Of a DNA stretch of 62,156 bases, positions 42,341 to 60,059 are shown piece after piece. The translations under genes were made by a program, and so were the position numbers. The notes beneath the pieces are model-generated. The model searched no databases. It had not been told where the DNA came from and saw only the letters and a list, made by a program, of their open reading frames with translations. Position 1 is the first letter of the stretch. The number at the start of each line of letters is the position of its first letter. This stretch comes from Comamonadaceae bacterium ALPHA2B (GTDB lineage Bacteria > Pseudomonadota > Gammaproteobacteria > Burkholderiales > Burkholderiaceae_C). The DNA is taken from the NCBI GenBank assembly GCA_005503065.1, contig SCOE01000035.1, forward strand, positions 1 to 62,156. Direction: 5' to 3'.

Positions 42341-42380
42341 CGCGGCTCGGCTGCTTCTTGTTGTGAAGTCTTCGGATGAC

Positions 42381-43346: not shown

Positions 43347-43532
43347 GGTTGTCTCCTGTAGTTTCTTGGTCGCTCGCACTCGTTTTCTCGCTAGCGCCAA
43401 AGGCGCTGCGCGCGATGAACCGCCCGATGCGCCCCCGGCCCGCTGCCGGTCTTACTCAGCTCTCGGCAAGCGGGACAGCGCGACTGTGACTCGTCGACGT
43501 ATAGCCGTCCAATACTTTCTCCCCGGCTTCTG

Positions 43533-43547
43533 ATACCTTCCAGGTAT
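43533..43547. promoter_or_regulatory. LysR box ATAC-N7-GTAT
   Basis: ATACCTTCCAGGTAT is a perfect palindrome that contains T-N11-A and matches the ATAC-N7-GTAT core recognised by BenM, CatM, CatR and CbnR. It lies 28 bases before the LysR start and about 190 bases from the operon start, so it could serve autorepression and activation. Confidence 0.7.
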
Positions 43548-43575
43548 ATCAACAGATGTGACCGATGGAGTCGAC

Positions 43576-44496
43576 ATGGACTTGCGACAGATGCGCTATG
43601 TTCTTGCCCTGGCCGAAGAACGCAGCTTCAGCAAAGCCGCGGAGCGGCTGCATATGGCCCAACCGCCTCTTTCCAGGCAGATTCGACAAATCGAGAACGA
43701 CCTCGGCGTTCCGCTATTCATCCGCACAGCGCGGGGCGTCGACCTCACAGAGGCTGGGAAGTCCTTGCTGCACGACGTGCCCAACATCCTCGGTCTGTCC
43801 AAGCTTGCACAGGAACGCGCCGTTCGAGCCGGGAAGGGGCTTGTGGGCGACTTGCACATTGGCATCTTCGGGTCGGGCATCCTGAACGTCATTCCGCTTC
43901 TGATCCAGCAATTTCATGCCTTGCGGCCGGACGTGCGCATCCGTCTGCACAGCCTGACCAAGGACGAACAGATTCGAGCCCTTCGGGAACACCGGATCAC
44001 CGTCGGATTCAACAGGCTGTTGCCTTCAGAGGATGACCTCGCTGTTCGCCTGGTCCTGCGTGAACCCATGTTCGTCGGCCTCTATGAAAGCCATCCCTTG
44101 GCATCCAAGGAAGAGATTTCGCTCTCGGAGCTGGCCAGGCAGCCGATGATCCTCTACCCCAACGCGCCTCTTCCAGGGCTGGCGCAGTACGTGATAAGCG
44201 CCTTCCGCCACGAAAACGTTGAGCTGACGATCGCGCAGGAAGTGGAAGATGTGACGACCTGCATTGCCTTGGTATCGGCGAAGTTGGGTCTATGCGTCAC
44301 GCCGGAATCCGGCACGATGCTTCGGCTATCCAATGTTGTCTTCAAACCGTTGCGGTCCTCGTATTTGAAGAACATTGAGTTGAGCTGTGTTTATCGAAGA
44401 GCGGACGATTCCCCTGTGCTGGCTGCATTCTTGGACGTAGTGAAGTCGTTCTCACAGGGCCGAGCAAGGAGCAAACCTTCCAAGACTCGCTCCTGA
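43576..44496 (+). CDS. LysR-family activator of the aromatic operon (CatR/BenM-like)
   Basis: The 306-residue protein starts MDLRQMRYVLALAEERSFSK with the helix-turn-helix AAERLHMAQPPLSRQIRQIE, a sequence typical of CatR/BenM/CbnR regulators. The effector domain follows (GDLHIGIFGSGILNVIPLLI; EDVTTCIALVSAKLGLCVTP). ATG 43576 follows GGAG by six bases; an in-frame GTG at 43558 is rejected. It is divergent from the Bug receptor and the catabolic genes, with a BenM-type box between. The inducer is probably a ring-cleavage product. Codon use is clearly more AT-tolerant than in neighbouring regions. Confidence 0.92.
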   Translation: MDLRQMRYVLALAEERSFSKAAERLHMAQPPLSRQIRQIENDLGVPLFIRTARGVDLTEAGKSLLHDVPNILGLSKLAQERAVRAGKGLVGDLHIGIFGSGILNVIPLLIQQFHALRPDVRIRLHSLTKDEQIRALREHRITVGFNRLLPSEDDLAVRLVLREPMFVGLYESHPLASKEEISLSELARQPMILYPNAPLPGLAQYVISAFRHENVELTIAQEVEDVTTCIALVSAKLGLCVTPESGTMLRLSNVVFKPLRSSYLKNIELSCVYRRADDSPVLAAFLDVVKSFSQGRARSKPSKTRS

Positions 44497-44754: not shown

Positions 44755-45696
44755 TCAGACCGCCGCGCTGATCAAGGGCCGCCCGGCAAAGAACGCGGCC
44801 AGGTTGTCTTCCACGCGGCGCGCCATGTCGGCCCGCGTCTCATGCGTGTTGCTTGCCACGTGCGGCAGCAGCACGACATTGTCGAGCGCCATCAGCGCCT
44901 CGGGCACGTGGGGCTCGTGCGTGAACACGTCGAGGCCCGCGCCCGCGATGCGCCGATGCACCAGTGCATCGATCAGCGCGTCTTCGTCGGTCACGCTGCC
45001 GCGTGCGATATTCACCAGATAGCCCTCCGGCCCGAGCGCGTCGAGGATCTCGCGCGACACCAGCCCGCGCGTGCCCCCGCCGCCGGCACTGGCGATCACC
45101 AGGAAGTCCGACCACTCGGCCAGCCCCTTCAGCGTGGGTTCGTAGACATAGGGCACATCGTTCAGCGCGCGCCGGTTGTGATAGCGCACCTCCATGTCGA
45201 AGCCCGACGTGCGGCGCGCGATGGCCTGGCCGATGCGCCCCAGCCCCAGGATCCCCACGCGCTTTCCCGACACCTTGGTGGCCAGCGGAAACTGGCCCGT
45301 GCGCCAGTCGCCACGGCGCACGAAGCGGTCAGCCGCGCTGATGCCGCGCGCCACGTCCATCAGCAGCGCGAAGGCGGTGTCGGCCACGCAGTCGTTGAGC
45401 ACGTCGGGCGTGTAGCCCACCGCGATGCCGCGCGCACGCGCCGCGTCGAGGTCGAAGGCATCGAGCCCGACGCCGAAGCTGGAGATCACCTTCAAGGCTG
45501 GCAGCGAGTCGATGAGCGCCTGGTCGGCGCCATAGCGCGCGGAGGTGACCAGGCCGACGAATTCAGCGCCGCGCGCGGCGAGGAAGGCGGCGGCGTCCGG
45601 CTCTTTCCAGAGTGGGTGCACCGAGTACCGTTGCGCGAGCCGGTCCTCGAGCGCCGGAAGCAGCGGCCCGAGTTGGAGAAGCGAATGGGATGGCAT
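44755..45696 (-). CDS. D-2-hydroxyacid dehydrogenase (hydroxypyruvate/glyoxylate reductase-like)
   Basis: The 313-residue NAD(P)-dependent enzyme reduces a 2-oxo acid or oxidises the D-hydroxy acid. The Rossmann motif is GKRVGILGLGRIGQAIARRT; substrate Arg lies in VNIARGSVTDEDALIDAL and the catalytic His in VVLLPHVASNTHETRADMAR. HNRRALNDVPY after the Rossmann fold resembles the NADPH-preferring plant-like hydroxypyruvate reductases. It ends beside an unexplained 258-base gap and is encoded on the same strand as the Lrp gene, 32 bases downstream of it, so the pair may be one unit. Confidence 0.9.
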   Translation of the reverse strand: MPSHSLLQLGPLLPALEDRLAQRYSVHPLWKEPDAAAFLAARGAEFVGLVTSARYGADQALIDSLPALKVISSFGVGLDAFDLDAARARGIAVGYTPDVLNDCVADTAFALLMDVARGISAADRFVRRGDWRTGQFPLATKVSGKRVGILGLGRIGQAIARRTSGFDMEVRYHNRRALNDVPYVYEPTLKGLAEWSDFLVIASAGGGGTRGLVSREILDALGPEGYLVNIARGSVTDEDALIDALVHRRIAGAGLDVFTHEPHVPEALMALDNVVLLPHVASNTHETRADMARRVEDNLAAFFAGRPLISAAV

Positions 45697-45728
45697 GAAG
45701 CAGGTGACGTGATGCGGGGCGCGGAAGC

Positions 45729-46211
45729 CTAATTCTGCGGTGGCACGGCAGTGCTGTACTTGATGCGCTCCATCGCGAAGCTCGAACTCACGTTAGACAG
45801 CTGCACCAGCCGGATGAGGCGTTGGTAAAAACGGTCGTAGTCGGCGATGTCGCTCACCAGCACATGCAGCAGGTAGTCGATGTCGCCGCTCAGCCGGTAG
45901 GCGGCAGTGACCTCGGGCAGTTGCCCCAGTGCCACCGAGAAGCTCTTGAGCCACTCCTGGCTGTGGTCGCGTGCCTGGATGAAGACGAAGGCCAGCATGC
46001 CGCGGTCGAGCTTGGCCGGATCGCAGATCGCCACCTCGGCCGTGATCACGCCCGCGCTCTTGAGCCGCTGGATGCGCTTCCAGCACGCGGGGCCGCTCAG
46101 GTTGACCATCTGCCCCAGTTCGTTGACCGGGATGGAACAGTCGCGCTGCAGGTTTTCAAGCAGCACACGATCGACCTTGTCCAAGGTAATTTCTTTTCCT
46201 GGTGCCTGCAT
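45729..46211 (-). CDS. Lrp/AsnC-family regulator
   Basis: The 160-residue protein has the Lrp helix-turn-helix (LDKVDRVLLENLQRDCSIPV, then VNLSGPACWKRIQRLKSAGV) and the RAM effector domain (LAFVFIQARDHSQEWLKSFS; YRLSGDIDYLLHVLVSDIAD). Lrp-type proteins respond to amino acids and often control one adjacent amino-acid gene. It is divergent from the cystathionine beta-lyase-like gene, its most likely target. ATG 46211 is preferred over an upstream TTG at 46229; neither has a good ribosome site. Confidence 0.9.
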   Translation of the reverse strand: MQAPGKEITLDKVDRVLLENLQRDCSIPVNELGQMVNLSGPACWKRIQRLKSAGVITAEVAICDPAKLDRGMLAFVFIQARDHSQEWLKSFSVALGQLPEVTAAYRLSGDIDYLLHVLVSDIADYDRFYQRLIRLVQLSNVSSSFAMERIKYSTAVPPQN

Positions 46212-46217
46212 GATGGG

Positions 46218-46229
46218 TTGAAAGTTCAA
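46218..46229. promoter_or_regulatory. Palindrome TTGAAAGTTCAA in the Lrp/beta-lyase gap
   Basis: TTGAA-AG-TTCAA is a perfect 5-2-5 inverted repeat in the AT-rich 73-base gap between the divergent genes. It is a candidate Lrp operator; AT-rich symmetric sites fit this family. Confidence 0.4.
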
Positions 46230-46284
46230 ATAAATTTAACCGGAGCGGGACATAAAGTTTCTGTTCACCGAACCAGAAAGCGCC

Positions 46285-47547
46285 ATGTCCCATCGCAAAT
46301 TGCATGCCACCGCAACGCCACGACAGGACACCGCCCTGACGCGCGTCGGCCGGTCGTCCCCGCACGGGCCCGCGTGCGACGACGCAGGCATTTCCCCGGC
46401 CTATGCCAACCCGCCGCTGGTGCGCGCATCGACCGTGCTGGCCGGTTCCCTGCGCGAATGGCGCGAACGCGCCGCACTGCCGACCCGCGACAAGCCCGCC
46501 GCCGCCTACGGGCGTTTCGGCACGCCGACCACGCAGGCATTCGAATCGGCGATGGCCGAACTCGAATCGGCGCATCGCGCACTGTGCTTCCCGTCGGGAC
46601 TGGCCGCCTGCACGATCTCGCTGCTGGCGCTCGCCCCGCCGGGCTCGCATGTGCTGATCACCGCCAGCGTCTATTGGCCGGTGCGCGAGTTCGCCGAGGA
46701 GACGCTCACGCAGCTGGGCTGCACCGTCGAGTTCTTCAACGAGATCGATGCCGACGGCATCGCGGCGCGCCTGCGCCCCGACACCTCGGTCGTTTATCTC
46801 GAATCGCCGGGCTCGCTGACCTTCGAGGTCTGCGACGTCGACCACATCGCGGCGCGCTGCCACGCCGCGGGCGTGCGCGTGGTGATGGACAACACCTGGG
46901 CCACGCCGGTGCTGTTTCGACCGCTCGAGCATGGCGTCGACGTGTCGGTGCAATCGGCCACCAAGTACATCTGCGGCCACTCCGACTGCATCCTCGGCGT
47001 GGCCGCGTGCAACGAGGAGACCTGGCGTGCGGTCGCAACGATGGCCACGCGCTTTGGCCAGACCGCATCGCCCGACGATCTCTATCAGGGGCTGCGCGGC
47101 CTGCGCACGCTGGGAGTGCGCATGCGCCAGCATGGGGCCAGCGCGGTCACGCTGGCGCACTGGCTCGCCGCGCGCCCCGAGGTGATGCATGTGTTCTCGC
47201 CGGTGATGCCCGGACATCCCGGCCACGCCGAATGGAAGCGCTTGTACGACGGCGCCTCGGGCGTGTTCTCCTTCGTGCTGAAGCCCGTGCCCGAGGCGGT
47301 GCTCGCGCGCTTCTTCGACAGCTTGCGCGCGTTCGGCATCGGCCTGTCCTGGGGTGGCTTCGAGAGCCTGGTGGTCCCGGTGCCCTCGGGCCGCACGCTG
47401 GCCATGCAGCAGGTTCAGGGCGGCGGCCAGCTGGTGCGCATCGCCGCCGGCCTCGAGGCCATCGAGGATCTGGTGGAAGACCTGCGCCAAGCGCTTGATT
47501 CCATGATCGATGTATCTTCTCTCGCCTTGTCGGCCCAGGTTGCCTGA
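46285..47547 (+). CDS. metC: Cystathionine beta-lyase-like PLP enzyme (C-S lyase)
   Basis: Family members cleave the C-S bond of cystathionine or cysteine conjugates to a thiol, pyruvate and ammonia. The 420-residue protein belongs to the Cys/Met-metabolism PLP family: YGRFGTPTTQAFESAMAELE, CFPSGLAACTISLLALAPPG, the Asp in MDNTWATPVLF and Schiff-base Lys227 in VSVQSATKYICGHSD. GLSWGGFESLVVP near the C-terminus fits beta-lyases better than gamma-synthases. It is divergent from the Lrp gene and 124 bases before the ABC-importer operon, so the real substrate may be an imported S-conjugate rather than cystathionine. Confidence 0.88.
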   Translation: MSHRKLHATATPRQDTALTRVGRSSPHGPACDDAGISPAYANPPLVRASTVLAGSLREWRERAALPTRDKPAAAYGRFGTPTTQAFESAMAELESAHRALCFPSGLAACTISLLALAPPGSHVLITASVYWPVREFAEETLTQLGCTVEFFNEIDADGIAARLRPDTSVVYLESPGSLTFEVCDVDHIAARCHAAGVRVVMDNTWATPVLFRPLEHGVDVSVQSATKYICGHSDCILGVAACNEETWRAVATMATRFGQTASPDDLYQGLRGLRTLGVRMRQHGASAVTLAHWLAARPEVMHVFSPVMPGHPGHAEWKRLYDGASGVFSFVLKPVPEAVLARFFDSLRAFGIGLSWGGFESLVVPVPSGRTLAMQQVQGGGQLVRIAAGLEAIEDLVEDLRQALDSMIDVSSLALSAQVA

Positions 47548-47588
47548 GACCGTTACACCGCCCTCCCTCCACCTCCACAGGAATGACC

Positions 47589-47675
47589 ATGCCCCGAAAC
47601 CACGCGTCGATGCGCGACGTTATGCCGAGCGATGTCCTAGCCACCGTCAACGTCTTGGGCGGGGTGCGGCCATGA
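47589..47675 (+). CDS. Possible 28-residue leader peptide before the ABC operon
   Basis: It reads MPRNHASMRDVMPSDVLATV and ends NVLGGVRP. AGGA lies six bases upstream, and the TGA stop overlaps the ATG of the binding-protein gene (CCATGA), the layout of a translationally coupled leader. An alternative in-frame ATG is at 47583. There is no family resemblance; the codon pattern is not decisive. Confidence 0.3.
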   Translation: MPRNHASMRDVMPSDVLATVNVLGGVRP

Positions 47676-49267
47676 CCGACCTGTCGCGCAGAACGGTGGT
47701 GGTCGGCGGTGCCGCCCTGGCGCTGGGGAACACGCTGGCCGGCCAAGCCATGGCACAGGCCGCGGCGAGCAAGAACACCTTGCGCATCACGCTGCCCGAG
47801 CCGGTGATGCTGACCGGCGCCTTCAACTCGTCGGGCCAGATCTACCTGATCTCCGGCAAGATGTTCGACGGCCTGGTGACCTACGGCTTCGACTTCAAGC
47901 CGCAGCCGCAGTTGGCCGAATCGTGGCAGCTCAGCGCCGACGGCCTCACGCTCACCTTCAAGCTGCGCGCCGGCGTGAAGTGGCATGACGGCAAGCCGTT
48001 CACCTCGGCCGACCTCGCCTATTCGGCGATGAGCGTGTGGAAGGTCGCGCACCCGCGCGGGCGCTCGACCTATGCCAATCTCGAGAAGGTCGAGACGCCC
48101 GACGCGCTGACCGCCGTGATGCGCTTCAGCAAACCCGCGCCCTACGTGATGAACGCCCTGGCTGGCATCGAGTCGCAGATCCTCCCGAGGCATCTGTACG
48201 AGGGCAAGGACCTGCTCACCAACCCGCTGAACTCGGCGCCGGTGGGCACCGGCCCCTACAAGTTCGTCGAGTGGCAGCGCGGCCAGTTCATCACACTCGA
48301 GCGAAACCCCGACTACTGGGATCGGACCAAGACGCCGGTCGAACGCATCGTCGTGCGAATCATCCCCGACCCGGCCGGACGCTCGGCGGCCTTCGAGTCG
48401 GGCGAGCTCGACGTCGGCGGCGCGATCCCGGTGGCGCTGGCCGACGCCAAGCGCCTGGGCAGCCTGCCCAGCCTGGAGATTCCCGACAAGGGCACCGAGG
48501 CGCTGGCCACCATGGCCTACATCGAGTTCAACCTGCGCAAGGCGCCGTTCAACGACGTGCGCGTGCGCCGCGCCATCGCTCATGCCCTGAACCGCGAGTT
48601 CATGCTGAAGAACATCTGGTACGGCTTCGGGCGCCCGTCGACCGGACCGATCTCCTCGGACATGGTCCAGTACTATTCCAAGGACGTGCCGAGCTACAAG
48701 TACGACCTCGAGATCGCCAAGAAGCTGCTCGACGAGGCCGGCCTCAAGCCCGGCGCCGATGGCATCCGCCTGCGCATGACGCACGACCCGCTGCCCGGCG
48801 GCGACCACTACCGCGCCACGGGCGACTACTTCCGCGCGGCGCTGCAGCGCATCGGCATCGCGGTCGAAGTGCGCAACCAGGACTTCGCGGGCTACTACAA
48901 GCGCGTCTACACCGACAACGACTTCGACACGACCAATTTCGTCGCCTTCAACCTGACCGATCCGACCATGGGCGTGCAGCGCTTCTACTGGTCGAAGAAC
49001 ATCCAGAAGGGCGTCGTGTTCTCCAACGGCTCGGGCTACTCGAATCCGGAGGTGGACAAGCTGCTCGAGGCCGCGCAGGTCGAGATCGATCCGGTCAAGC
49101 GCAAGGCGCAGTTCGCGGCGTTCCAGAAGATCGTGATGACCGACCTGCCCAACATCCCCATCGGCGACATCAATTACTTCACGCTGATCAACCGCCGCGT
49201 GAAGAACTCGGTCACCAGCCCCTTCGGCGCGCACGACAACTTCGCTGCCGTGACGCTCGCGGGCTGA
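47672..49267 (+). CDS. Peptide/opine-type ABC transporter solute-binding protein (SBP_bac_5)
   Basis: The 531-residue protein starts with a twin-arginine-like signal (SRRTVVVGGAALALGNTLAG). The mature part has the DppA/OppA-class pattern: MFDGLVTYGFDFKPQPQLAE, TFKLRAGVKWHDGKPFTSAD, GTGPYKFVEWQRGQFITLER and RNPDYWDRTKTPVERIVVRI. It delivers peptides, opines or similar amine ligands to the permeases encoded next. It leads the operon of importer and enzyme genes. The ligand is unknown; the linked C-S lyase and oxidative enzymes suggest an amino-acid conjugate. Confidence 0.92.
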   Translation: MTDLSRRTVVVGGAALALGNTLAGQAMAQAAASKNTLRITLPEPVMLTGAFNSSGQIYLISGKMFDGLVTYGFDFKPQPQLAESWQLSADGLTLTFKLRAGVKWHDGKPFTSADLAYSAMSVWKVAHPRGRSTYANLEKVETPDALTAVMRFSKPAPYVMNALAGIESQILPRHLYEGKDLLTNPLNSAPVGTGPYKFVEWQRGQFITLERNPDYWDRTKTPVERIVVRIIPDPAGRSAAFESGELDVGGAIPVALADAKRLGSLPSLEIPDKGTEALATMAYIEFNLRKAPFNDVRVRRAIAHALNREFMLKNIWYGFGRPSTGPISSDMVQYYSKDVPSYKYDLEIAKKLLDEAGLKPGADGIRLRMTHDPLPGGDHYRATGDYFRAALQRIGIAVEVRNQDFAGYYKRVYTDNDFDTTNFVAFNLTDPTMGVQRFYWSKNIQKGVVFSNGSGYSNPEVDKLLEAAQVEIDPVKRKAQFAAFQKIVMTDLPNIPIGDINYFTLINRRVKNSVTSPFGAHDNFAAVTLAG

Positions 49268-49273
49268 GGACCG

Positions 49274-50263
49274 ATGGGCCCCTCGACCCCACCCCTGGTG
49301 CGCTTCCTCGGGCGACGGCTTCTGCACGGGCTCGTGGTGCTGGTGTGCATTGCGGTGCTCGACTTCGTGCTGCTGCACATGGCGCCGGGCGACGCGGCCG
49401 AGATCCTGGCGGGCGAATCGGGCGGCAGCGATGCGACCTACGTCGCGCAGTTGCGTGCGCAGTTCGGACTCGACCAGCCGCTGTACAAGCAGCTCGGCCA
49501 CTACCTGCTGAGGCTCGCACAGTTCGACCTGGGTTGGTCCGGACGCAACAACATGTCGGTCGCGCAGCTGCTGATGTCGCGCCTGCCGGCCACGCTGCTG
49601 CTGATGGTCGCGGCCATCACGCTGGCGGTGGTGGCCGGTGCGGCGCTGGGCACGCTGGCCGCGCGCCGCGTGAACTCGCCAACCGACAACGCCATCGCCG
49701 TGTTCTCGCTACTCTCCTACGCCACGCCGCTGTTCTGGCTCGGGCTGATGCTGATCGTGCTGTTCTCCGTCACGCTGCGGTGGCTGCCGACCGGCGGCAT
49801 GGAAAGCGTGGGCGCGGGGCTTACCGGCTGGAGCCGCATCACCGATGTCGCGGCGCATGCGGTGCTGCCCACCATCACGCTGGGGTTGTTCTACATGGCC
49901 GTGTACACACGCCTGGTGCGCGCTTCGGTGCTCGAGGTGAAGGAGATGGACTATGTGCGCATGGCGCGCGCCAAGGGCCTGAGCCCCGCACGTGTGACGC
50001 TGCGCCACGTGTTCCGCAACGCGATGCTGCCGATGGTCACCATGCTGGGCGTACAGGTCGGCTCGCTGCTGGGGGGCGCGGTCGTGGTCGAGATGGTGTT
50101 CAGCTGGCCCGGCCTCGGCCGCCTGGCATTCGACGCGGTGCTCGCGCGCGACTTGAACCTGCTGCTGGGGATCGTGCTCGCCAGCGCGGTACTGGTCATC
50201 CTCATCAACATCGCGGTCGACCTGCTCTATGCGCGGCTCGACCCCCGGATCGAGGTGCGCTGA
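49274..50263 (+). CDS. ABC transporter permease, DppB/OppB type
   Basis: The 329-residue inner-membrane subunit has six predicted helices. The N-terminal segment LVVLVCIAVLDFVLLHMAPG, followed by DAAEILAGESGGSD and LRAQFGLDQPLYKQ, is typical of DppB. The EAA loop for contact with the ATPase is YVRMARAKGLSPARVTLRHV. It begins six bases after the binding-protein stop. Confidence 0.93.
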   Translation: MGPSTPPLVRFLGRRLLHGLVVLVCIAVLDFVLLHMAPGDAAEILAGESGGSDATYVAQLRAQFGLDQPLYKQLGHYLLRLAQFDLGWSGRNNMSVAQLLMSRLPATLLLMVAAITLAVVAGAALGTLAARRVNSPTDNAIAVFSLLSYATPLFWLGLMLIVLFSVTLRWLPTGGMESVGAGLTGWSRITDVAAHAVLPTITLGLFYMAVYTRLVRASVLEVKEMDYVRMARAKGLSPARVTLRHVFRNAMLPMVTMLGVQVGSLLGGAVVVEMVFSWPGLGRLAFDAVLARDLNLLLGIVLASAVLVILINIAVDLLYARLDPRIEVR

Positions 50264-50264
50264 G

Positions 50265-51104
50265 ATGGTCCGTGCAATGCGTTTTGCGCGTGACTTCGCC
50301 AGACGCTGGCCCGCGCTGCTCGGTCTGGTGCTGCTGCTGGCCGTGGTGTGCGCCGCGCTGTTCGCGCCGGTGTTCTATCCCGAAGACCCCCTCGAGATGG
50401 TCGGGCAGCCGCTGACCTGGCCTGGCAAGGACGCGACCACGCCGCTGGGCACCGACACGCTCGGCCGTGACGTGGCTTCAGGCATCGTGCACGGTGCGCG
50501 CGTGTCGCTGGCGGTCGGGTTCTCGGCCACGCTGGTCGCGATGATCGTGGGCGTCGGCGTCGGCGCCACCGCCGGCTACGCGGGCGGCCGCGTCGACGAC
50601 CTGCTGATGCGCCTCACCGAAGTGTTCCAGACCATTCCGAACTTCGTGCTGCTGATCGTGCTGGTGGTCGTGCTGCAGCCCTCGCTCGGCACCGTGACCG
50701 TGGCGATCGCCGCCGTGTCGTGGCCCAGCCTCGCGCGGCTGGTGCGCGCCGAGGTAATGGCGCTGCGGCGGCGCGAGTTCGTGCAGTCGTGCGTGACGCT
50801 GGGCATGGGCCACCTGCGCATCGTGCTCACGCAGATCCTGCCGAACTGCCTGGCGCCGGTGATCGTCACCGCATCGATCATGATGGCCAGCGCCATCCTG
50901 ATGGAGACCGGCCTGTCCTTCCTCGGCCTGGGCGACCCGAACGTCGTGAGCTGGGGCAGCATGATCGGCAACGGCCGCAATTCGCTGCGCACCGCGTGGT
51001 ACCTCTGCGCGATTCCGGGCGTGGCGATCATTCTCACGGTGCTGTCGATCAACCTCGTCGCCGAGGGACTCAACGACGTGCTCAATCCGAGGCTGCAGCG
51101 CTGA
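50265..51104 (+). CDS. ABC transporter permease, DppC/OppC type
   Basis: The 279-residue second permease has the DppC features: LGTDTLGRDVASGIVHGARV near the start, LTEVFQTIPNFVLLIVLVVV and the EAA loop RREFVQSCVTLGMGHLRIVL. SFLGLGDPNVVSWGSMIGNG is the family's C-terminal mark. Its ATG lies one base after the DppB-like stop, and its stop overlaps the start of the ATPase gene by one base. Confidence 0.93.
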   Translation: MVRAMRFARDFARRWPALLGLVLLLAVVCAALFAPVFYPEDPLEMVGQPLTWPGKDATTPLGTDTLGRDVASGIVHGARVSLAVGFSATLVAMIVGVGVGATAGYAGGRVDDLLMRLTEVFQTIPNFVLLIVLVVVLQPSLGTVTVAIAAVSWPSLARLVRAEVMALRRREFVQSCVTLGMGHLRIVLTQILPNCLAPVIVTASIMMASAILMETGLSFLGLGDPNVVSWGSMIGNGRNSLRTAWYLCAIPGVAIILTVLSINLVAEGLNDVLNPRLQR

Positions 51105-52071
51105 TGGCCGCACTCGACATCCAGGGCCTCAACGTCACGCTCACGCGCGACGGCCAGCGCTTTCTCGCGGTCGAAGGCGTCACGCTTTTGGTCGAACGCG
51201 GCCAGACGCTGGCGCTCGTCGGCGAATCGGGCAGCGGCAAGTCGGTGACGGCGCTGGCCATCATGCGGCTGCTGCCGCCGCGCGGCGCGAGTCTCGCGGC
51301 CAAGAAGCTTTCGCTCGACGGCGTCGACCTGATGGCGCTGCCCGAGCGCGAGATGCGCCGCATCCGCGGCAACCGCATCTCGATGGTGTTCCAGGAGCCG
51401 ATGACGTCGCTCAACCCGGTGCTCACCATCGGCGAGCAGATCGTCGAAGTGCTTCGCGAGCACGAAGACCTGACGCACGCGCAGGCCTGGGAGCGCGCCA
51501 TCGAACTGTGCAAACGCGTGCGCATCCCCGACGCCGAACGCAAGGTCAAGGACTACCCGCACCGCCTGTCGGGCGGCATGCGCCAGCGCGTGGTGATCGC
51601 CATCGCGCTTGCCTGCCAGCCGGACATCCTGATCGCCGACGAGCCGACCACCGCGCTGGACACCACGATCCAGGCACAGGTGCTGCGGCTGCTGCGCGAG
51701 CTGCAGCGTGAAAGCAATGCGGGCGTGCTGCTCATCACGCACAACCTGGGCGTGGTGGCGCAAGTGGCCGACCGCGTGGCCGTGATGTACGCCGGCCGCA
51801 CGGTCGAACATGCGGCCGTGCGCGACCTGTTCCGCCAGCCGCTGCATCCGTACACGCAGGGCCTGCTGCGGGCGATGCCGGTGCCGGGTTCGACCGACCG
51901 GCTCGTCGAGATCCCGGGCAGCGTGCCCGATCCGCGGCGTCGCCCGGCGGGCTGCGCGTTCAACGACCGTTGCCCGCGTGCGATCGCCCTCTGCCGCGAG
52001 GCGCGGCCCGACATGGTCGAGCTGGCACCGGGCCATTCGGTCGCCTGCTTCGTGGCCCAGGAAGAGACGGC

Positions 52072-52075
<4 letters not shown>
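51104..52075 (+). CDS. ABC transporter ATPase, DppD/OppD type
   Basis: The 323-residue ATPase has Walker A ([20 protein letters not shown]), Q-loop ([19 protein letters not shown]), signature ([17 protein letters not shown]) and Walker B ([12 protein letters not shown]). The C-terminal oligopeptide extension with [14 protein letters not shown] carries the cysteines found in many DppD/F proteins, some of which bind a 4Fe-4S cluster. It starts one base before the end of the permease gene. Confidence 0.94.
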
Positions 52076-53111
<1,036 letters not shown>

Positions 53112-53115
<4 letters not shown>

Positions 53116-53918
53116 ACAAGGTCGCAGGCAAAGTCGCGCTCGTCACCGGCGCCACCGGCGGCCTCGGCTCTGCCATCGCGCTGCAGCTTGCCGCCTCGGG
53201 TTGCCGCGTGGTGGTGCACTACGGTCATGACGCTGCGAAGGCCGACGCCGTGGTCGCCGACTGCATCACGGCCGGCAGCGAGGCCGTGGCCGTGAGCGGC
53301 GACCTGGCCGACGACGACGCCTGCCGCCGCATCGCGACCGAAGCCGCAGCCGCCTGGGGCCGCATCGACGTGCTGGTGAACAACGCCGCCATCACGCGCT
53401 TCATTCCGCATGCCGATCTCGAGGCGCTCGACTCCGCCAGCTTTCGCCAAGTGATGGACGTGAACCTGATGGGCCCGTTCCAGATGACGCGCGCCGCGTT
53501 GCCCTGGCTGCGCGCGCACGGTGCAGGCAGCGTGGTCAACATCTCGTCGACGGCGGGCCAGGCCGGCACCGGCAGCTCGATCGCCTATGCGGCCTCGAAG
53601 GCGGCACTCAACAACCTCACGCTGACGCTGGCCCGCGCGCTCGCGCCCGCCGTGCGGGTGAACGCGGTCGTGCCTGGCTTCATCGCCAACGACTGGCTGC
53701 TGAAGGGCATCGGACCCGAGCGCTTCGCCGCGCTCACGGCCGCGCAAATCGCGGCCACGCCGCTGCAGCACGCGGCGACGCCCGACGACGTGGCCGAGGT
53801 CGCGGTGTGGGTGGCGCTGTCGGCGCGCCATCTCACCGGCGAGCTGGTGCGCGTCGACGGTGGACACCACCTGGGACCGGGCTCCGCGGTGGTCCCGAGC
53901 GAACGGAGAACCCCTTGA
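53112..53918 (+). CDS. Short-chain dehydrogenase/reductase, first of two in the operon
   Basis: The 268-residue classical SDR uses NAD(P)[21 protein letters not shown] is the cofactor loop, [11 protein letters not shown] the NNA motif, [12 protein letters not shown] holds the catalytic Ser and [13 protein letters not shown] the Tyr and Lys. [10 protein letters not shown] near the end is typical of FabG-like proteins. Its ATG overlaps the ATPase stop, and its own stop is overlapped by the TTG start of the flavoprotein, so it belongs firmly to the importer operon. Confidence 0.93.
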
Positions 53919-55372
53919 TCCCCGACACCCACACCACGGCCCTCGACCGCCTCGCGCAACAGGCCCACCACGAACGAACGCTGTTCGACTACCCGCCGCG
54001 CGAATGGGTGCCGCCGCGCTTGCGCGACGGCGAGCGGGTGCTCGACGTCGTCATCGTCGGTGGCGGGCAAAACGGCATCGCCGCCGCGTCGGGCCTTCAG
54101 CAGGCGCGCGTGCCCAACCTTCTGATGCTCGACGAGAACCCCGAAGGCCGCGAAGGCCCCTGGGTGACCTACGCGCGGATGATCACCCTGCGCACCATCA
54201 AGACGCTGCCTGGCCCCGCGCTGAAGGTGCCCGCGCTGTCGTTCCAGAGTTGGTACGAGGCCCAGTACGGGGCCGACGCCTGGGAGGCCCTGGTGCGCAT
54301 CCCCAGGGAAATGTGGATGGCCTACCTTGGCTGGATCCGCCAGACGCTGGCGATCCCGACGATGCACGGCACGCGGCTCGAACTGATCGAACCCGACGAC
54401 GGCCTGCTGCGCCTGACGGTGCGCACGTCGGCCGGCACGCAGCACATCCTCACGCGCAAGGTGGTTCTGGCCACCGGCAGCACCGGTGCAGGTGGCCGCA
54501 ACATCCCGGCTTTCGTCGAGCAGAAGCTGCCGCGCGACCGCTGGGCGCACAGCGCCCAGTCGATCGACTTCGCGGCACTCCAGGGCAAGGACGTGGCGGT
54601 GCTCGGCGCCGGCGCGTCGGCCTTCGACAACGCGGCCACCGCGCTGGAAGCGGGCGCCGCGCGCGTCGACCTGTACATGCGCCGCGCCACGCTGCCCGAG
54701 ATGAATAGCGCGCGCTTCATGGAGTTCGAAGGCCTGTACCGCCACTTCGCGGAGATGGACAGCCTGGTGCGCTGGCGCTTCATGCGCAAGATCTTCGCGA
54801 GCCCGATGCCGCCGCCGCCCGACACCTTCCTGCGCACCACGGCCTTCCCCAACTTCCACATGCACTTCGAATCGGCCTGGGAAGACGTCGGACTTCGCGA
54901 CGACGGCACGATCGAACTGGTCACGCCGACGGGCACGCACACGGCGGACTTCGCGATCCTGGGCACCGGCTTCGCGGCCAACCTTGCGCGCCGGCCTGAA
55001 CTGGCCGCGGTGCTGCCGCACGTCGCGCTGTGGGGCGATCGCTTCGTGCCGCCGGCCGGCGAGGAGTCGCCTGCCATCGCCCGCTTCCCCTTCCTGGGTG
55101 CCGGCTTCGAGCTGACCGAGCGCACGCCGGGCGAGTGCCCGGAGGTCGCGGACATCCACATGTTCAACGGCGGCGCGCTGCCCAGCATGGGCCCGATCGG
55201 CCTGGGCATCAACGGCATGGCGCATGGCACCGAGCGGCTGGTGCGGGGCATCACGCGGGACTTCTACCTGCGTGACGCCGAGCGCTTCTGCGCCGAGTTC
55301 CTGGCTTACGACGTGCCCGAGGCCAAGCTGGTGCCTGCACCGGTGGCCATGCCGTCGCCTTCACCGACCTGA
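53915..55372 (+). CDS. Flavoprotein monooxygenase-like (two-Rossmann, FAD/NADPH)
   Basis: The 485-residue protein has the FAD loop LDVVIVGGGQNGIAAASGLQ (about 44-64) and an NADPH loop VAVLGAGASAFDNAATALEA (about 229-249), with a later ATG motif (FAILGTGFAANL), the layout of class B FMO/SidA-like enzymes. It should hydroxylate N, S or C atoms of a small compound. It starts at TTG, in a TTGA overlap with the dehydrogenase stop, seven bases after GGAG; the next in-frame ATG is after the FAD loop, so TTG is the only sensible start. The substrate is probably that imported by the preceding ABC system. Confidence 0.88.
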   Translation: MIPDTHTTALDRLAQQAHHERTLFDYPPREWVPPRLRDGERVLDVVIVGGGQNGIAAASGLQQARVPNLLMLDENPEGREGPWVTYARMITLRTIKTLPGPALKVPALSFQSWYEAQYGADAWEALVRIPREMWMAYLGWIRQTLAIPTMHGTRLELIEPDDGLLRLTVRTSAGTQHILTRKVVLATGSTGAGGRNIPAFVEQKLPRDRWAHSAQSIDFAALQGKDVAVLGAGASAFDNAATALEAGAARVDLYMRRATLPEMNSARFMEFEGLYRHFAEMDSLVRWRFMRKIFASPMPPPPDTFLRTTAFPNFHMHFESAWEDVGLRDDGTIELVTPTGTHTADFAILGTGFAANLARRPELAAVLPHVALWGDRFVPPAGEESPAIARFPFLGAGFELTERTPGECPEVADIHMFNGGALPSMGPIGLGINGMAHGTERLVRGITRDFYLRDAERFCAEFLAYDVPEAKLVPAPVAMPSPSPT

Positions 55373-55393
55373 ACCCTCCACCTTTGGACTGCC

Positions 55394-55915
55394 ATGACCC
55401 CACCCGACGTGATCGACCGACTGATGGGCCTGCGGCCCGGCGACTTCCTGAGTGACCTGCGCCATGAACGCCCGGCCGTGCGGCAGCACAGCCAGGGCAG
55501 CTTCGACGCGCTGCTGAATGTGGCCCAGGCGGCCGACCTGTCCCCTGCCGAGCGCGACTTGGTCGCGCTGCGGGTGGCCACGCTGCACGCCTGTGCGCCG
55601 CTGGTGGCGCTGCATCGCGAGCGCCTGGCCGCGCTGGGCATTGGACCTGCCGCAATGGATGCCGCCGCGGCGGGCCCGGATGCAAATGGCGCGACGGCTG
55701 CCGATGGCTTCGACGCACGCACGGTCGCCCTGCTGCGCCACGCGGACCTGCTGACCTTGCGGCCCATCGAGGCACGGCCCGAGCACCTGCATGCGCTCGC
55801 CGACGCGGGCCTCACGCCGGCCGCCATCGTCACGTTGTCGCAGCTGATCGCCTTCGTTGCGTACCAGGTGCGCGTCGTCGCTGGCTTGACGCTGCTGGAA
55901 CGGAGCCCCGCATGA
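55394..55915 (+). CDS. CMD/AhpD-fold protein without CxxC
   Basis: The 173-residue protein starts MTPPDVIDRLMGLRPGDFLS and has the carboxymuconolactone-decarboxylase helical fold: AERDLVALRVATLHACAPLV and ALHRERLAALGIGP. The AhpD active site C-x-x-C-x-x-x-H reads CAPLVALH, with the second cysteine lost, so peroxidase activity is unlikely; the protein may be structural or use another chemistry. It resembles the CMD family I remember as Avi_7170-type, found with ABC importers and monooxygenases. It overlaps the next gene by four bases. Confidence 0.82.
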   Translation: MTPPDVIDRLMGLRPGDFLSDLRHERPAVRQHSQGSFDALLNVAQAADLSPAERDLVALRVATLHACAPLVALHRERLAALGIGPAAMDAAAAGPDANGATAADGFDARTVALLRHADLLTLRPIEARPEHLHALADAGLTPAAIVTLSQLIAFVAYQVRVVAGLTLLERSPA

Positions 55916-56481
55916 ACTTCACGCTCGACACGCTCGACTGGAAGCCCTGGATCGCGGCGGTGCCGCTGGAAGACTGCAGCGAAGCACAGCTTGCAGTGCT
56001 CGACGCCAGCAACCGCAGTGCACGCCAGTCGCAGTACTACCTGACCCTGGTGCACGACGCGCCCGCGCTGCTGGAGCGCTCGCTGCTCTTCAATGCCGTG
56101 ATGTACGGAACCAAGGGGCTGCCGCGCGCCGAGCGCGAGTTCGCGACAGTGGTGGAGTCGCGCATCAACGGCTGCCCGTACTGCGCATCCGTGCACGCAC
56201 GTCTCTTCGTGCAACTGGCCAAGGACCTGCCGACGATGCAGGGCCTGCTCGCCGACGGCCCCGCCGCACCGATGCCGCCGAGACTGCGCGCCATCGCCGA
56301 CTACGCCGCTGCGCTCACCACCACGCCGCCGAGCGCCACGCCGGCGCATATCACCGCGCTGCGCGAGGTCGGCCTCACCGACCTCGAGATAGCCGACGCG
56401 ACGCATGCCGTCGCGATGTTCGCCTGGGCCAACCGCCTGATGCAGACGCTGGGCGAGCCCTTTCTGCCGCAAGCCGCCTGA
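55912..56481 (+). CDS. AhpD-like peroxidase-related protein with intact CxxC
   Basis: The 189-residue protein has the complete alkylhydroperoxidase motif GCPYCASVHARLFVQLAKD (C-x-x-C-x-x-x-H). The N-terminus TLDTLDWKPWIAAVPLEDCS precedes a helical bundle (YLTLVHDAPALLERSLLF). Family members reduce peroxides or other substrates with the cysteine pair. It is paired with the CxxC-less CMD protein by a four-base overlap, suggesting a hetero-oligomer; it resembles the Avi_7169-type family as I remember it. Confidence 0.87.
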   Translation: MNFTLDTLDWKPWIAAVPLEDCSEAQLAVLDASNRSARQSQYYLTLVHDAPALLERSLLFNAVMYGTKGLPRAEREFATVVESRINGCPYCASVHARLFVQLAKDLPTMQGLLADGPAAPMPPRLRAIADYAAALTTTPPSATPAHITALREVGLTDLEIADATHAVAMFAWANRLMQTLGEPFLPQAA

Positions 56482-56522
56482 AGGCGGCGCGCGGCGCTGT
56501 CACGGTTCGAGGAGATTCCGTC

Positions 56523-57257
56523 ATGCCCTTTCCCCCTTCGCTTGGTTATCGCATCGCGCTCGTCACCGGTGCCTCGAGCGGCATCGGCGCCTCCACGGTC
56601 GAGGCGCTGACTGCGGCCGGCCTGAAGGTGTACGCCGTGGCACGCCGCGGCGACCGTCTGCAATCGCTTGCGCAGCGAACCGGCTGCATCCCGTTGGTGC
56701 TGGACATCACCGACCGCACCGCCTGCGCCGCCGCACTCGACGGGCTGGAAATCGACATCCTGGTGAACAACGCCGGCGGTTCGCACCAGAGCCCGCTGCA
56801 GGACTACCCGCCGGACGAGATCGATCGAATCCTCGACCTGAACCTGCGTGCCGTGATGCACCTCAACCGCATCGTGCTGCCCGGCATGCTCGAGCGCGAC
56901 CGCGGCCACATCGTGGTGATCGGTTCGATGGCAGGCCACTACCCGATGCGCGGGTCGGCGCTTTACTCCGCCGCCAAGGCCGCGGTATCGCACGCCTTCG
57001 ACGTGCTGCGCCTTGACACGCTGGGCAGCCGCGTGCGCTGGACCGAAGTCGCGCCCGGCCGCGTGGCAACCGAAGCCTTCATCAACTCCATCGGCCCCGA
57101 GCGTGCCAAGGAATTCCTGAGCAAGGAAACGCTGCAGCCCGAAGACCTGGCCGCCTCGATCTGTCACGCGCTGATGGCGCCGCCCCACGTGAACGTGAGC
57201 CGCATCGAGATCTATCCGGTCAAGCAGGCGTCGGGCGGCTTTCTCTACGCGGACTGA
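56523..57257 (+). CDS. Short-chain dehydrogenase/reductase, second of two (YdfG-like)
   Basis: The 244-residue SDR has the cofactor loop RIALVTGASSGIGASTVEAL, the NNAG motif in DILVNNAGGSHQSPLQ, the catalytic Ser in VIGSMAGHYPMRGS and YSAAKAAVSHAFDVL with Tyr and Lys. The C-terminal HVNVSRIEIYPVKQ resembles YdfG, the NADP-dependent serine/3-hydroxy acid dehydrogenase. It begins 41 bases after the AhpD-like stop and closes the rightward operon. Confidence 0.9.
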   Translation: MPFPPSLGYRIALVTGASSGIGASTVEALTAAGLKVYAVARRGDRLQSLAQRTGCIPLVLDITDRTACAAALDGLEIDILVNNAGGSHQSPLQDYPPDEIDRILDLNLRAVMHLNRIVLPGMLERDRGHIVVIGSMAGHYPMRGSALYSAAKAAVSHAFDVLRLDTLGSRVRWTEVAPGRVATEAFINSIGPERAKEFLSKETLQPEDLAASICHALMAPPHVNVSRIEIYPVKQASGGFLYAD

Positions 57258-57345: not shown

Positions 57346-58293
57346 TCAAATCCCCCGCGTCAAATACACCGCTTCCCGCCCCACGATCGGCTCGCGCGTC
57401 GGCATGAAGATCGTGCACCCGTCGCAGGGCGAGACGATACGGCGGTCGCCGTCGGTGGCGATGAGCTCGTCCTTGGCAAAGGTCTCGAAGCCGACCAGCG
57501 GGCGCTCGAAACGGAACTCGGTGGTGTGGACCATGTGGGTCTGCAGGAGTTCATAGCGGCGCTGCGGCTCCCTGGGCGTGGAGGGCTCGGGCGCGTCGAT
57601 GAGGCCGAAGTGGGCCAGGAAGTCCAGCGTCACGGCGGTGGCCAGTTGCGAGGCCGATGCCTTGAAGTGCTGGCCGCACTCGACCACCATGGCCGTGCCG
57701 GGGCCGGGCCCGTCGTTGCCATGGCGGCCGTACTGGATGAGCGGGATGCCGGACCCCAAACCCTGCGGCATGACCAGGTGCACCGGCGGGCGGCCGATGG
57801 CCATGGCGACGGCGCCGTTGCGCTCGAAGGCGGGGTACACCCAGAAGGGCACCACGTCCTGGCTGGTGGAGTGGATGTCGAGGATGTGGTCGGCCGCGTC
57901 GACCACGCCGCGCATGGCGCGGGCGCGCTGCAGTTCGGGGCTGTCTTCGGCGCCGTCGAGCCATTCGCTGGACCAGATGCGGTTCATGTTGTGCACCAGC
58001 TGCCGGCTCTCGAAGGGCTTCTCGATGTCGAAGCTCTCGTACGCCGCCACATTGGCAAAGCTGACGGTGAGCGTGCCGATCTTGGGCCGCACGCCGGTGT
58101 CGAGCAGGTGGGTGGCGGCCACCATGCCGCAGATCTCGTTGCCGTGCGTCAGGGCGTTGATGAGCACATGCGGGCCGGGGCGGCCGGATTCGAAGCGGTG
58201 GACGTAATCGACCCCGGTGTTGCCGGCCTTGTAGGCCGACAGGTCGCGGGGAGTGACTTCGAGCGTGGGGAGCGGGGGTGGGGTGTGGGTCAT
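57346..58293 (-). CDS. Succinylglutamate desuccinylase/aspartoacylase-family metallohydrolase
   Basis: The 315-residue zinc enzyme removes an acyl group from an N-acyl amino acid or a related amide. Zinc ligands are His and Glu in LTHGNEICG and a second His in ILDIHSTSQDVVPF. NMNRIWSSEWLDG gives the substrate-binding Asn-Arg pair. The C-terminal domain starts near YELLQTHMVHTTEFRFERPL. Start MTHTPPPLPTLEV is at 58293; the frame is open far upstream through the next gene's antisense, which is ignored. It converges on the operon above and stands apart from it. Confidence 0.9.
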   Translation of the reverse strand: MTHTPPPLPTLEVTPRDLSAYKAGNTGVDYVHRFESGRPGPHVLINALTHGNEICGMVAATHLLDTGVRPKIGTLTVSFANVAAYESFDIEKPFESRQLVHNMNRIWSSEWLDGAEDSPELQRARAMRGVVDAADHILDIHSTSQDVVPFWVYPAFERNGAVAMAIGRPPVHLVMPQGLGSGIPLIQYGRHGNDGPGPGTAMVVECGQHFKASASQLATAVTLDFLAHFGLIDAPEPSTPREPQRRYELLQTHMVHTTEFRFERPLVGFETFAKDELIATDGDRRIVSPCDGCTIFMPTREPIVGREAVYLTRGI

Positions 58294-58310: not shown

Positions 58311-60059
58311 TCATCCGCCGGGCTGCAGGGCGTCGGCCGAAGCGCCGGTCCACCGCAGCATCGTGAACTCGGCGGGCTGCAGCAGGGCAATGCCGATCTC
58401 GCACACGACGCGGCCCTGGGCGACGTCGCGGGTCGTCATGGTGCTGCCGAGGCCGCACCGCACGTACCAGGCATCGCGCATGCGGCTGCCCTGCAGCGCG
58501 CCCTCCTGCCACTGGCCCAGCAGGAAGCCGTCGACCGCCGCGCGCAGCCGGGCCCAGAGCGCCCTGCCCTGCGGCTCGAAGGCGACCCATCGGAGACCCG
58601 CGTCGAGCGAGGCCTCGATGGCATCGACGTAGCGGCGCAGGTGGACGTAGCGCCACTGCGGTTCGGACGACAGCGTGCGGCCGCCCCACAGCACGAGGCC
58701 GCGGCCGATGAATTCCCGAAAGCAGTTGATGCCGAGCGGGTTGAGATGCTCCTGCTCGTGGGTGCTCACGGGCTGCTCTGCGCGAACCACGCCCTGCACC
58801 GCCAGGTCGGCCGGCGCGTGATGCACGCCGCGCTGCAGGTCCGAGCGCGCATACAGGCCCGCGACGGCGCCGCTGGGCGGCACGGTGAGGGTCGCGCCGA
58901 CGACACCCGGCAGCGGCAGCGGGTCGGGCACCACCAGGCAGGGCCAGTGCAGCGCGGCGTGCGGCGAATCGACCCCGGCGCGCAGTGCCTGCACGTCCGC
59001 CGCCGTGAGGCCCGGCGCCGGGTCGAGCAGCGCCATGCGCCAGGCCCGCGGTGCGCCGGCATGCGCGACCAGCGCGGCGCGCAGCGCGGCGCCGTCGGAC
59101 CGCAGGCTGCTTCCGGGCGCAGCGACGAGGCGCACGTCGTCCAGGCCGGCCAGCGTGGCGAAGGCGGCGGCGTAGCTGCCAGGCTCGTCCGCCGCGCCCA
59201 GGGGTGGCAACCGGCCGTCGGTGCCGCCGGCCAGCGAGACGGGCGCCAGGCCGTCGGCATCGGGCACCAGCGAACGCACCGCATCGAGCAGCGCCCAGGC
59301 ATCGGCCGCCGGCGCGAGCTCCCACCACACCGGCGCCCGTCCCACGGCGGCCGCCTCTCGCGAGAGCACGGTGCCCACCCACCGTGGATGCAGTGCGGAG
59401 AAGGCCAGCCCCGTCCAGGCGTCCAGCAGCAGGCCCTCGGCGTCGAGGCATTCGATTTCGAAGCTGAGGATGCGGCTCACGCCGACGCGTCCGTGCACCA
59501 CCCGGCGGCCCTGGCGGTCGTGCCAGCGGCCCTGGGCATCGGCGACGCATTCGAAGATGCCGTCCGCGTTGGCCGTGCGCATCATCGCGCCCGGTTCGGC
59601 ATGGGTCATGGCGCGCAAGGTGGCCGGGCTGGCACGCTCGCGCAGCCGGACGGTGCCGTTGCCGAGGCGGCCGGGCGTCGCGGCGTGGATCACGATGGAC
59701 CGGTCCGGCGCGGCACCGTCGGGGTGCAGCGGCGCGCTGGCTGCGGTCGCCGCTGCCGCGGTCCGCTGCACGTACAGCCGCGTGCCGCCGTTGTCGAAGA
59801 AGGCGCGCACGGCCAGTGCGATGTGGTTGGTCTGCGGCGCCACGCCGCCGGCGCCGTCGTCGTCGAGCCACAGCGGCTGCGCGTCGCCATAGATGCGCTC
59901 GAAGTCCGCCACGCTCGCGAGCACAGGCGGCACGGCTTCCACCGGCCCGCGGCGGGTCGGCCCGACGAAGGCTGCGATGTGCGTGGGCACCAGCGTGATC
60001 GTGTCGCTCGACGAGGGCGTCTCTTCCACGTAGACGCCGGGAGCGGTCGAGGCCGGCAA
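58311..60059 (-). CDS. Solitary contractile-tail sheath protein (phage/injection-system type)
   Basis: The 582-residue protein matches the phage tail sheath family at both ends: N-terminal STAPGVYVEETPSSSDTITL, THIAAFVGPTRRGPVEAVPP and FERIYGD, and C-terminal LNPLGINCFREFIGRGLVLW, GGRTLSSEPQWRYVHLRRYV, CEIGIALLQPAEFTMLRW. Its start is TTG 60059, eight bases after GGGAGG; no nearby ATG fits the conserved N-terminus. No tube, baseplate, spike or terminase gene lies beside it; neighbours are a deacylase and an RbgA GTPase. It ends 17 bases before the deacylase start. The role of a lone sheath is unknown. Confidence 0.87.
   Translation of the reverse strand: MPASTAPGVYVEETPSSSDTITLVPTHIAAFVGPTRRGPVEAVPPVLASVADFERIYGDAQPLWLDDDGAGGVAPQTNHIALAVRAFFDNGGTRLYVQRTAAAATAASAPLHPDGAAPDRSIVIHAATPGRLGNGTVRLRERASPATLRAMTHAEPGAMMRTANADGIFECVADAQGRWHDRQGRRVVHGRVGVSRILSFEIECLDAEGLLLDAWTGLAFSALHPRWVGTVLSREAAAVGRAPVWWELAPAADAWALLDAVRSLVPDADGLAPVSLAGGTDGRLPPLGAADEPGSYAAAFATLAGLDDVRLVAAPGSSLRSDGAALRAALVAHAGAPRAWRMALLDPAPGLTAADVQALRAGVDSPHAALHWPCLVVPDPLPLPGVVGATLTVPPSGAVAGLYARSDLQRGVHHAPADLAVQGVVRAEQPVSTHEQEHLNPLGINCFREFIGRGLVLWGGRTLSSEPQWRYVHLRRYVDAIEASLDAGLRWVAFEPQGRALWARLRAAVDGFLLGQWQEGALQGSRMRDAWYVRCGLGSTMTTRDVAQGRVVCEIGIALLQPAEFTMLRWTGASADALQPGG

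Follow-up and report, generated by a model that had tools for sequence, protein, structure and literature searches.

The Avi_7170/Avi_7169-KPN_01854 set (TIGR04027-TIGR04030) combines a CMD-family protein, an AhpD partner, a Dpp-type ATP-binding cassette (ABC) importer and a flavin oxygenase. A Klebsiella proteomics paper on iron limitation (PMC7194016) is said to mention KPN_01858 once, and we found no paper describing the gene set in the open-licence PubMed Central literature. The same four elements recur in the window analyzed here, the 62,156-nt contig SCOE01000035.1 of Comamonadaceae bacterium ALPHA2B, where a run of ten genes places a peptide-type importer beside a class B flavoprotein monooxygenase-like protein and two CMD/AhpD-fold proteins.

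Two better-studied pathways share its logic. In the ethylenediaminetetraacetate (EDTA) system of Chelativorans BNC1 (EppA with EmoA/EmoB), a dedicated ABC importer and binding protein likewise deliver an amino-acid-like compound to a flavin monooxygenase that cuts it, each oxidative cut yielding glyoxylate (PMC7312458). Bacillus subtilis salvages S-alkylcysteine with CmoO and CmoJ through sulfoxidation, C-S cleavage to a sulfenic acid and reduction (PMC10863075). That order of chemistry, in other enzyme families, is the one in the reading that we tentatively favor for the window, where an S-substituted amino acid would be imported, oxygenated on its sulfur and cleaved at the C-S bond.

Layout of the ten-gene run

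The genes lie on the plus strand (47672-57257) in the order solute-binding protein (SBP), DppB, DppC, DppD, DppF, SDR1, flavoprotein, CMD, AhpD and SDR2, where SDR denotes a short-chain dehydrogenase/reductase (Table 1). Start and stop codons were checked for these ten genes and for the MetC-type gene upstream; all are intact open reading frames (ORFs), and profile searches with each protein returned the expected family for every named gene. The initial annotation, made from the letters alone, had described a single rightward run of a complete Dpp-like importer, an SDR, a TTG-started flavoprotein, CMD and AhpD proteins and a second SDR, mostly joined by overlaps of 1-4 bases with a last gap of 41, and a C-S lyase-like gene, a divergent Lrp gene and a 2-hydroxyacid dehydrogenase upstream; this description holds throughout. 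Five of the nine junctions are overlaps, of 1 base (DppC-DppD) or 4 bases (DppD-DppF, DppF-SDR1, SDR1-flavoprotein and CMD-AhpD), and the remaining gaps are 6 bases (SBP-DppB), 1 base (DppB-DppC), 21 bases (flavoprotein-CMD) and 41 bases (AhpD-SDR2). The DppB-DppC value applies to an ATG at 50265; if the ATG at 50229 is used, the two genes overlap by 35 bases. The TTG start of the flavoprotein at 53915 is supported by a GGAG upstream at a fitting distance and by the TTGA shared with SDR1.

A pattern scan found no sigma70-type promoter and two terminator-like sites (5.7 in shuffled sequences), both outside the gene run, and neither RNA families nor tRNAs were found in the window. As judged from sequence, the importer is a complete family-5 (Dpp-type) ABC system. 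We conclude that the ten genes most likely form one operon for the uptake and oxidative breakdown of an amino-acid-like compound. The MetC-type gene stops 124 bases before the ATG of the SBP gene, so it may or may not be co-transcribed with the operon.

Table 1. Features of the operon and the adjoining upstream genes (positions in the window).
Feature	Position	Strand	Evidence and remarks
D-2-hydroxyacid dehydrogenase	44755..45696	-	glyoxylate reductase is the top-scoring model but stays under its cut-off (220 vs 455 bits); a neighbour of doubtful membership in the system
Lrp/AsnC-type regulator	45729..46229	-	divergent from the C-S lyase-like (MetC-type) gene
MetC-type pyridoxal phosphate enzyme, cystathionine beta-lyase family	46285..47547	+	candidate cysteine S-conjugate beta-lyase; passes TIGR01324 (391.6 vs 365.9 bits)
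Family-5 (peptide/nickel-type) solute-binding protein	47672..49267	+	PF00496, 307 bits; ATG start at 47672
DppB-type permease	49274..50263	+	ORF and profile match
DppC-type permease	50265..51104	+	start at 50265 inferred; ORF opens at 50229
DppD-type ATPase	51104..52075	+	ORF and profile match
DppF-type ATPase	52072..53115	+	ORF and profile match
SDR oxidoreductase 1	53112..53918	+	profile match; in L021 a 48% homolog follows DppC and precedes the flavoprotein
Class B flavoprotein monooxygenase-like protein, FMO/N-hydroxylase fold	53915..55372	+	TTG start; PF13434 and PF13738 above cut-off
CMD-fold protein, TIGR04029	55394..55915	+	132.8 vs 100.75 bits; lacks the CxxC pair
AhpD-type 'peroxidase-related' protein	55912..56481	+	TIGR01926, 159.7 vs 81.8 bits; CPYCASVH motif
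SDR oxidoreductase 2	56523..57257	+	ORF and profile match

Importer and flavoprotein form a conserved core

Related loci, denoted here by L numbers, retain part of this arrangement. An alphaproteobacterial metagenome-assembled genome (L021) keeps DppA, DppB, DppC, SDR1 and the flavoprotein in order, at 62, 65, 70, 48 and 50% identity; its SDR1 was located by tblastn, having been among the genes missed by the composition-based gene caller. Microvirga (L213) carries DppA-DppB-DppC-flavoprotein-DppDF with an insertion sequence between DppB and DppC (60, 57, 56, 46 and about 50%). Since no CMD, AhpD or MetC gene was found in the compared stretches of either locus, the importer and flavoprotein are the conserved core here, and CMD-AhpD, SDR2 and MetC look like additions in the window or losses elsewhere. 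None of the other loci compared showed the full order of the window with CMD-AhpD and SDR2 included; the gene order is conserved elsewhere in part, as in the DppA-B-C-SDR-flavoprotein stretch.

The flavoprotein and CMD families are nonetheless close companions. Among 299 genomes of the window's family, drawn from a larger number, flavoprotein relatives at E <= 1e-40 occupy 52 places in 44 genomes; with the window counted, 35 of these places have a TIGR04029-type gene no more than 10 kb away, and 35 of the 41 TIGR04029-type CMD places (E ~1e-9 or better, one per place) stand beside a flavoprotein. Together with the order kept in L021, this proximity argues for an association beyond chance. In a separate profile survey, with duplicate and overlapping loci included, 65 of 158 flavoprotein places had a CMD or AhpD gene no farther than 11 kb away.

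The window flavoprotein shows two dinucleotide-binding motifs and class B architecture, and its structure model has a pLDDT of 84.4; a search of PDB sequences gave partial matches only. Its family is broad (4,191 relatives among 8,000 candidates scored). The closest proteins scored are 84-92% identical and lie on contigs outside the loci compared; named genomes may hold closer relatives than those among the matches listed. Seven of 15 same-genus genomes, its own included, have a relative, the best outside its own genome at 44%. In a quick tree of 132 rows, the window protein groups with L004, L021 and L213 (support 99), outside a 60-row CMD-linked clade (97) that contains 42 of the 44 rows labelled CMD-linked, a labelling by BLAST that undercounts. 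Distant relatives on Rhizobium leguminosarum plasmids (L217 and L221) adjoin questin oxidase-like, deaminase, creatininase-like and amidohydrolase genes, which suggests that the family has a different use there.

CMD and AhpD proteins occur with several importer classes

The initial annotation had named the Avi_7170/Avi_7169 families for the two small proteins, and rightly. The CMD protein passes TIGR04029, and the AhpD protein, which passes TIGR01926, matches TIGR04030 below its cut-off (175.2 vs 233.15 bits). All 68 AhpD rows collected carry C-x-Y-C-x-x-V-H, and the second-position cysteine is present in none of the 70 rows of the CMD alignment; AhpD is therefore capable of dithiol chemistry, and CMD alone probably not. 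A paired state of the two fits the many loci that encode both as one fused protein. In its tree, the window AhpD falls with 62 others in a flavoprotein-linked clade, apart from five luciferase-set rows (100/100), on a long end branch (0.82), and the window CMD belongs to a 51-row group that includes luciferase-set rows. Because the window rows sit on long end branches in the flavoprotein, AhpD and CMD trees, their fine placement is unsure. Taken with the SBP tree below, where the SBP falls in yet another group, the groupings show the window to be a mosaic.

Across all loci compared, the flavoprotein-CMD-AhpD module occurs with five importer classes: Dpp-type (L205), SBP_bac_3 amino-acid-type (L209, L218 and, by likeness, L048), branched-chain-type (L063), SBP_bac_8-type (L215, L216) and Bug/TctC-type (L175). 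On Agrobacterium, Sinorhizobium and Shinella plasmids (L215, L216, L219, L250 and L252), an opine dehydrogenase-like gene divergent from a LysR gene accompanies an SBP_bac_8-type importer, flavoprotein, CMD and AhpD, in three cases (L216, L219, L252) with a MATE exporter; this is a conserved rhizobial version of the module. In the Dpp version (L205, L174, L183 and relatives), a BAAT-like enzyme of the bile acid/acyl-CoA thioester hydrolase family, assigned by Pfam for L205 and by likeness for the others, sits between SBP and CMD.

CMD/AhpD genes with Dpp and luciferase-like genes, which the initial annotation had described for other proteobacteria, were found in L181, L187, L188 and L248, the luciferase-like gene there by BLAST to the annotated protein of Variovorax L220 and not by TIGR04027; in L220 itself they are annotated. 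Clusters in which a flavoprotein takes the place of the luciferase-like enzyme, as the initial annotation proposed for the window, are common. The window is, however, no simple swap within the TIGR04027-TIGR04030 set, because neither its SBP (not TIGR04028) nor its AhpD groups with the clades of that set. Some loci contain luciferase-like and class B enzymes together (L214, L220, L247). On an Agrobacterium pTi plasmid (L214, 7412-17972), an NtaA/DmoA-type and a second luciferase-like enzyme, a class B flavoprotein, a Dpp-type importer and an acyl-CoA dehydrogenase-like gene form one run divergent from a LysR gene, and a sulfonate binding protein and another luciferase-like gene lie ~6-7 kb upstream.

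The importer lineage accompanies S/N-O and C-S/C-N chemistry

The window SBP has a twin-arginine-like N-terminus. It fails both TIGR04028 (91.5 vs cut-off 468.5 bits) and the E. coli DppA model NF043070 (134.9 vs cut-off 1005 bits). In one MAFFT alignment of these diverged proteins, the positions of E. coli DppA Arg355 and Asp408, which we take to clamp the peptide ends, are Leu and Asn in the window SBP. Import of ordinary dipeptides is disfavoured by the profile scores and these ligand-site residues.

We built an SBP tree from proteins of 430-700 amino acids only (65 rows, several sharing one genome; L283 and partial copies absent). The window SBP joins L021 and L213 (support 100/97) and next L273-L275 (98/97), inside a clade of 23 rows. 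Of these, 13 have a luciferase-like gene (NtaA/DmoA-, SfnG- or SsuD-like) no farther than 9 kb away and two more have only an acyl-CoA dehydrogenase-like gene; an automatic label counted 16 rows, including L021 by a generic acyl-CoA dehydrogenase. In seven genomes, a luciferase-like gene lay within 10 kb of 5 of 9 window-SBP relatives vs 3 of 74 other family-5 SBPs (Fisher p = 2e-4), with the distance and the genomes picked after looking, same-genome paralogs not independent, and one of the three being itself a 41% relative (L279). At 8, 10 and 12 kb the counts were 4, 5 and 5 of 9 vs 3/74 each (p = 2e-3, 2e-4 and 2e-4). The seven were taken from 17 matching genomes, leaving out the window's own, G171, G215, G220, G277, G334, G346, G390, G456 and G469. 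The partners scanned match the NtaA/DmoA family above cut-off in L283 and L287 and are SfnG-, SsuD- or SfnB-like, below cut-off, in L280, L284 and L288; a neighbour labelled acyl-CoA dehydrogenase in L276 matched no NCBIfam model at 1e-30.

The next relatives of the window SBP head runs that end in an S/N-oxide reductase, at three loci in two genomes (L273 and L274 share one). In both L274 and L275, a BisC-family S/N-oxide reductase comes after DppABCDF (928.6 and 936.4 bits; cut-off 1017.55). A MetC-type lyase (448.6 vs 365.9 bits) lies 1.4 kb past the reductase of L275, with IclR and aldehyde dehydrogenase genes also beyond. On one strand of L273, a window-type SBP (53%) is followed in turn by an AtzE-type amidase, a second importer and the reductase; the opposite strand carries IclR and aldehyde dehydrogenase genes and a partial MetC-type gene. 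One run in Brenneria (L045) holds the flavoprotein, Dpp genes, an S/N-oxide reductase and a CMD-like gene, the reductase lying between DppA and the CMD-like gene; the latter extends as far as the stretch does and has no NCBIfam match at 1e-10. Within L001-L292, tblastn matches above 100 bits to the L275 reductase were confined to L273-L275 and L045. Importers of the window-SBP lineage thus occur beside enzymes for the formation, cleavage or reduction of S-O/N-O and C-S/C-N bonds.

Genes flanking the operon

Convergent with SDR2 is a gene for an aspartoacylase/succinylglutamate desuccinylase-like protein (57346-58200, minus strand, start not settled; PF24827); enzymes of this kind can deacylate N-acyl amino acids. 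A 624-amino-acid phage tail sheath-like protein (58311-60185, minus strand; PF04984, PF17482) lies a few hundred bases to ~1 kb past the operon, and the next scanned window proteins are a GTPase-domain and a LytTR-domain protein. On the other side (41393-44496), genes for an intradiol (catechol-type) dioxygenase, a binding protein of the Bug type and a LysR regulator resembling AlsR/BenM, with matches below cut-offs, make up a separate aromatic-degradation-like set.

Discussion

The enzyme partners of the importer lineage, together with a MetC-type lyase both in the window and by L273/L275, make an S-substituted cysteine or its sulfoxide our best single guess at the substrate. The SBP would capture the zwitterionic S-substituted amino acid (a cysteine S-conjugate or sulfoxide), and the flavoprotein would oxygenate a substrate heteroatom with NADPH and O2, sulfur being favored. 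The MetC-type enzyme, whose six highest-ranking matches among solved structures carry the name cystathionine beta-lyase or cysteine-S-conjugate beta-lyase, and which is probably under the divergent Lrp, could then cut the C-S bond, releasing pyruvate and ammonia along with a sulfenic acid or thiol. Acting as a pair with CMD, the AhpD-type protein might reduce the reactive sulfenic or peroxy product, and the SDRs might reduce a released carbonyl.

Several observations count against this pathway. All four other MetC orthologs compared have a divergent Lrp-like gene, the pair standing alone; no DppA, DppB, DppC or flavoprotein matches were found in the stretches compared around them; no other flavoprotein locus of the profile survey has a MetC-like gene above 28% identity; and the pair in the window is set off from the operon by the intergenic gap. 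MetC was therefore rejected as a conserved part of the flavoprotein system. The cysteine-conjugate substrate of the initial annotation is no more than a candidate, with the S/N-oxide reductases and C-S lyase beside related importers in its favor and the distribution of MetC against it. In the innermost SBP subclade (the window, L021, L213 and L273-L275), none of six rows has a luciferase-like gene within 9 kb, so that link belongs to more distant kin. None of the four reductases reaches the BisC-family cut-off (731.7-936.4 vs 1017.55 bits), and BisC-family enzymes act on N-oxides too. Sulfur clues found at single loci were not counted: TauE (only L209), an annotated CysB-family regulator in L220, and a sulfurtransferase in L220 (likenesses in L247 and L281).

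In the main rival, the flavoprotein N-oxygenates a secondary or primary amine brought in by the importer, opine- or aminopolycarboxylate-like, whose product would yield an oxo-acid such as glyoxylate for reduction by the 2-hydroxyacid dehydrogenase or the SDRs, with MetC-Lrp unrelated. The best fold matches of the flavoprotein model are the amine N-hydroxylases PvdA, KtzI and SidA, and opine dehydrogenase-like genes lie near 10 of the 59 CMD/AhpD loci listed, several of them close kin (PF02317 is confirmed for that of L216); both weigh against sulfur as the atom oxygenated. Glyoxylate release from EDTA offers a precedent (PMC7312458). We judge N-oxygenation rather unlikely. Class B also includes Baeyer-Villiger-type and ring-opening enzymes, which could act on an imported carbonyl or heterocyclic carboxylate; genes with an HCCA isomerase annotation in L216, L219 and L254 point that way, as do the questin oxidase-like, creatininase-like and amidohydrolase neighbours of the distant relatives in L217 and L221. 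We consider this improbable, as L217 and L221 stand apart from the window protein in the flavoprotein tree and none of those neighbour genes is in the window operon. Also improbable is an ordinary di- or oligopeptide importer beside unrelated oxidoreductases with no joint pathway. Family-5 SBPs are common (6 to 20 matches per genome in seven genomes), and the singular full order of the window would suit such a chance assembly; the overlapping genes, the DppA-B-C-SDR-flavoprotein order kept in another class, the flavoprotein-CMD proximity and the Leu/Asn substitutions (one alignment, ligand roles presumed) all speak against it.

We also offer, with considerable doubt, a broader model in which flavoprotein-CMD-AhpD is an undescribed portable oxygenation cassette, joined to at least five importer classes, whose AhpD dithiol (with CMD) directly reduces the S- or N-oxygenated product. 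The window would then be an independent assembly on an importer lineage found elsewhere with luciferase-like C-S/C-N monooxygenases or an S/N-oxide reductase. The comparison offers a testable function for TIGR04029 and TIGR04030, NCBIfam families with a structural name only, and ties both to the broad family of the flavoprotein. It also points out importer-enzyme pairs that could lead to substrates. If the sulfur reading is true, soil and plant-associated bacteria would have an added route to recover sulfur from cysteine conjugates.

Set against known systems, the window departs from the Avi/KPN set in its class B flavoprotein, in an SBP that fails TIGR04028, and in an AhpD that scores below the TIGR04030 cut-off in another clade; none of the 13 cluster proteins matched TIGR04027 among the matches listed, and no window ORF matched luciferase-like references. 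EmoA is FMNH2-dependent with a partner reductase (PMC7312458), whereas the window has a single class B flavoprotein with CMD/AhpD, and no NtaA/DmoA-family (EppA/EmoA-type) monooxygenase was matched among the listed cluster proteins or the window ORFs. CmoJ, a YxeK/DszA homologue, acts on an N-acetylated sulfoxide (PMC10863075); its counterparts in the window are a class B flavoprotein and a PLP lyase. The class B N-hydroxylases PvdA, KtzI and SidA share 15-20% identity with the window flavoprotein, whose operon looks catabolic in its importer and degradative families. In L048, L063, L175, L205, L215 and L216 the flavoprotein family, CMD and AhpD are likewise close together, but with SBP_bac_3, branched-chain, SBP_bac_8, Bug or Dpp-with-BAAT importers, and the window flavoprotein falls outside their clade. 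The class B flavoprotein with CMD/AhpD is thus a widespread variant, uncharacterized as far as our literature search goes, of a known kind of system, in which a dedicated ABC importer feeds a flavin monooxygenase.

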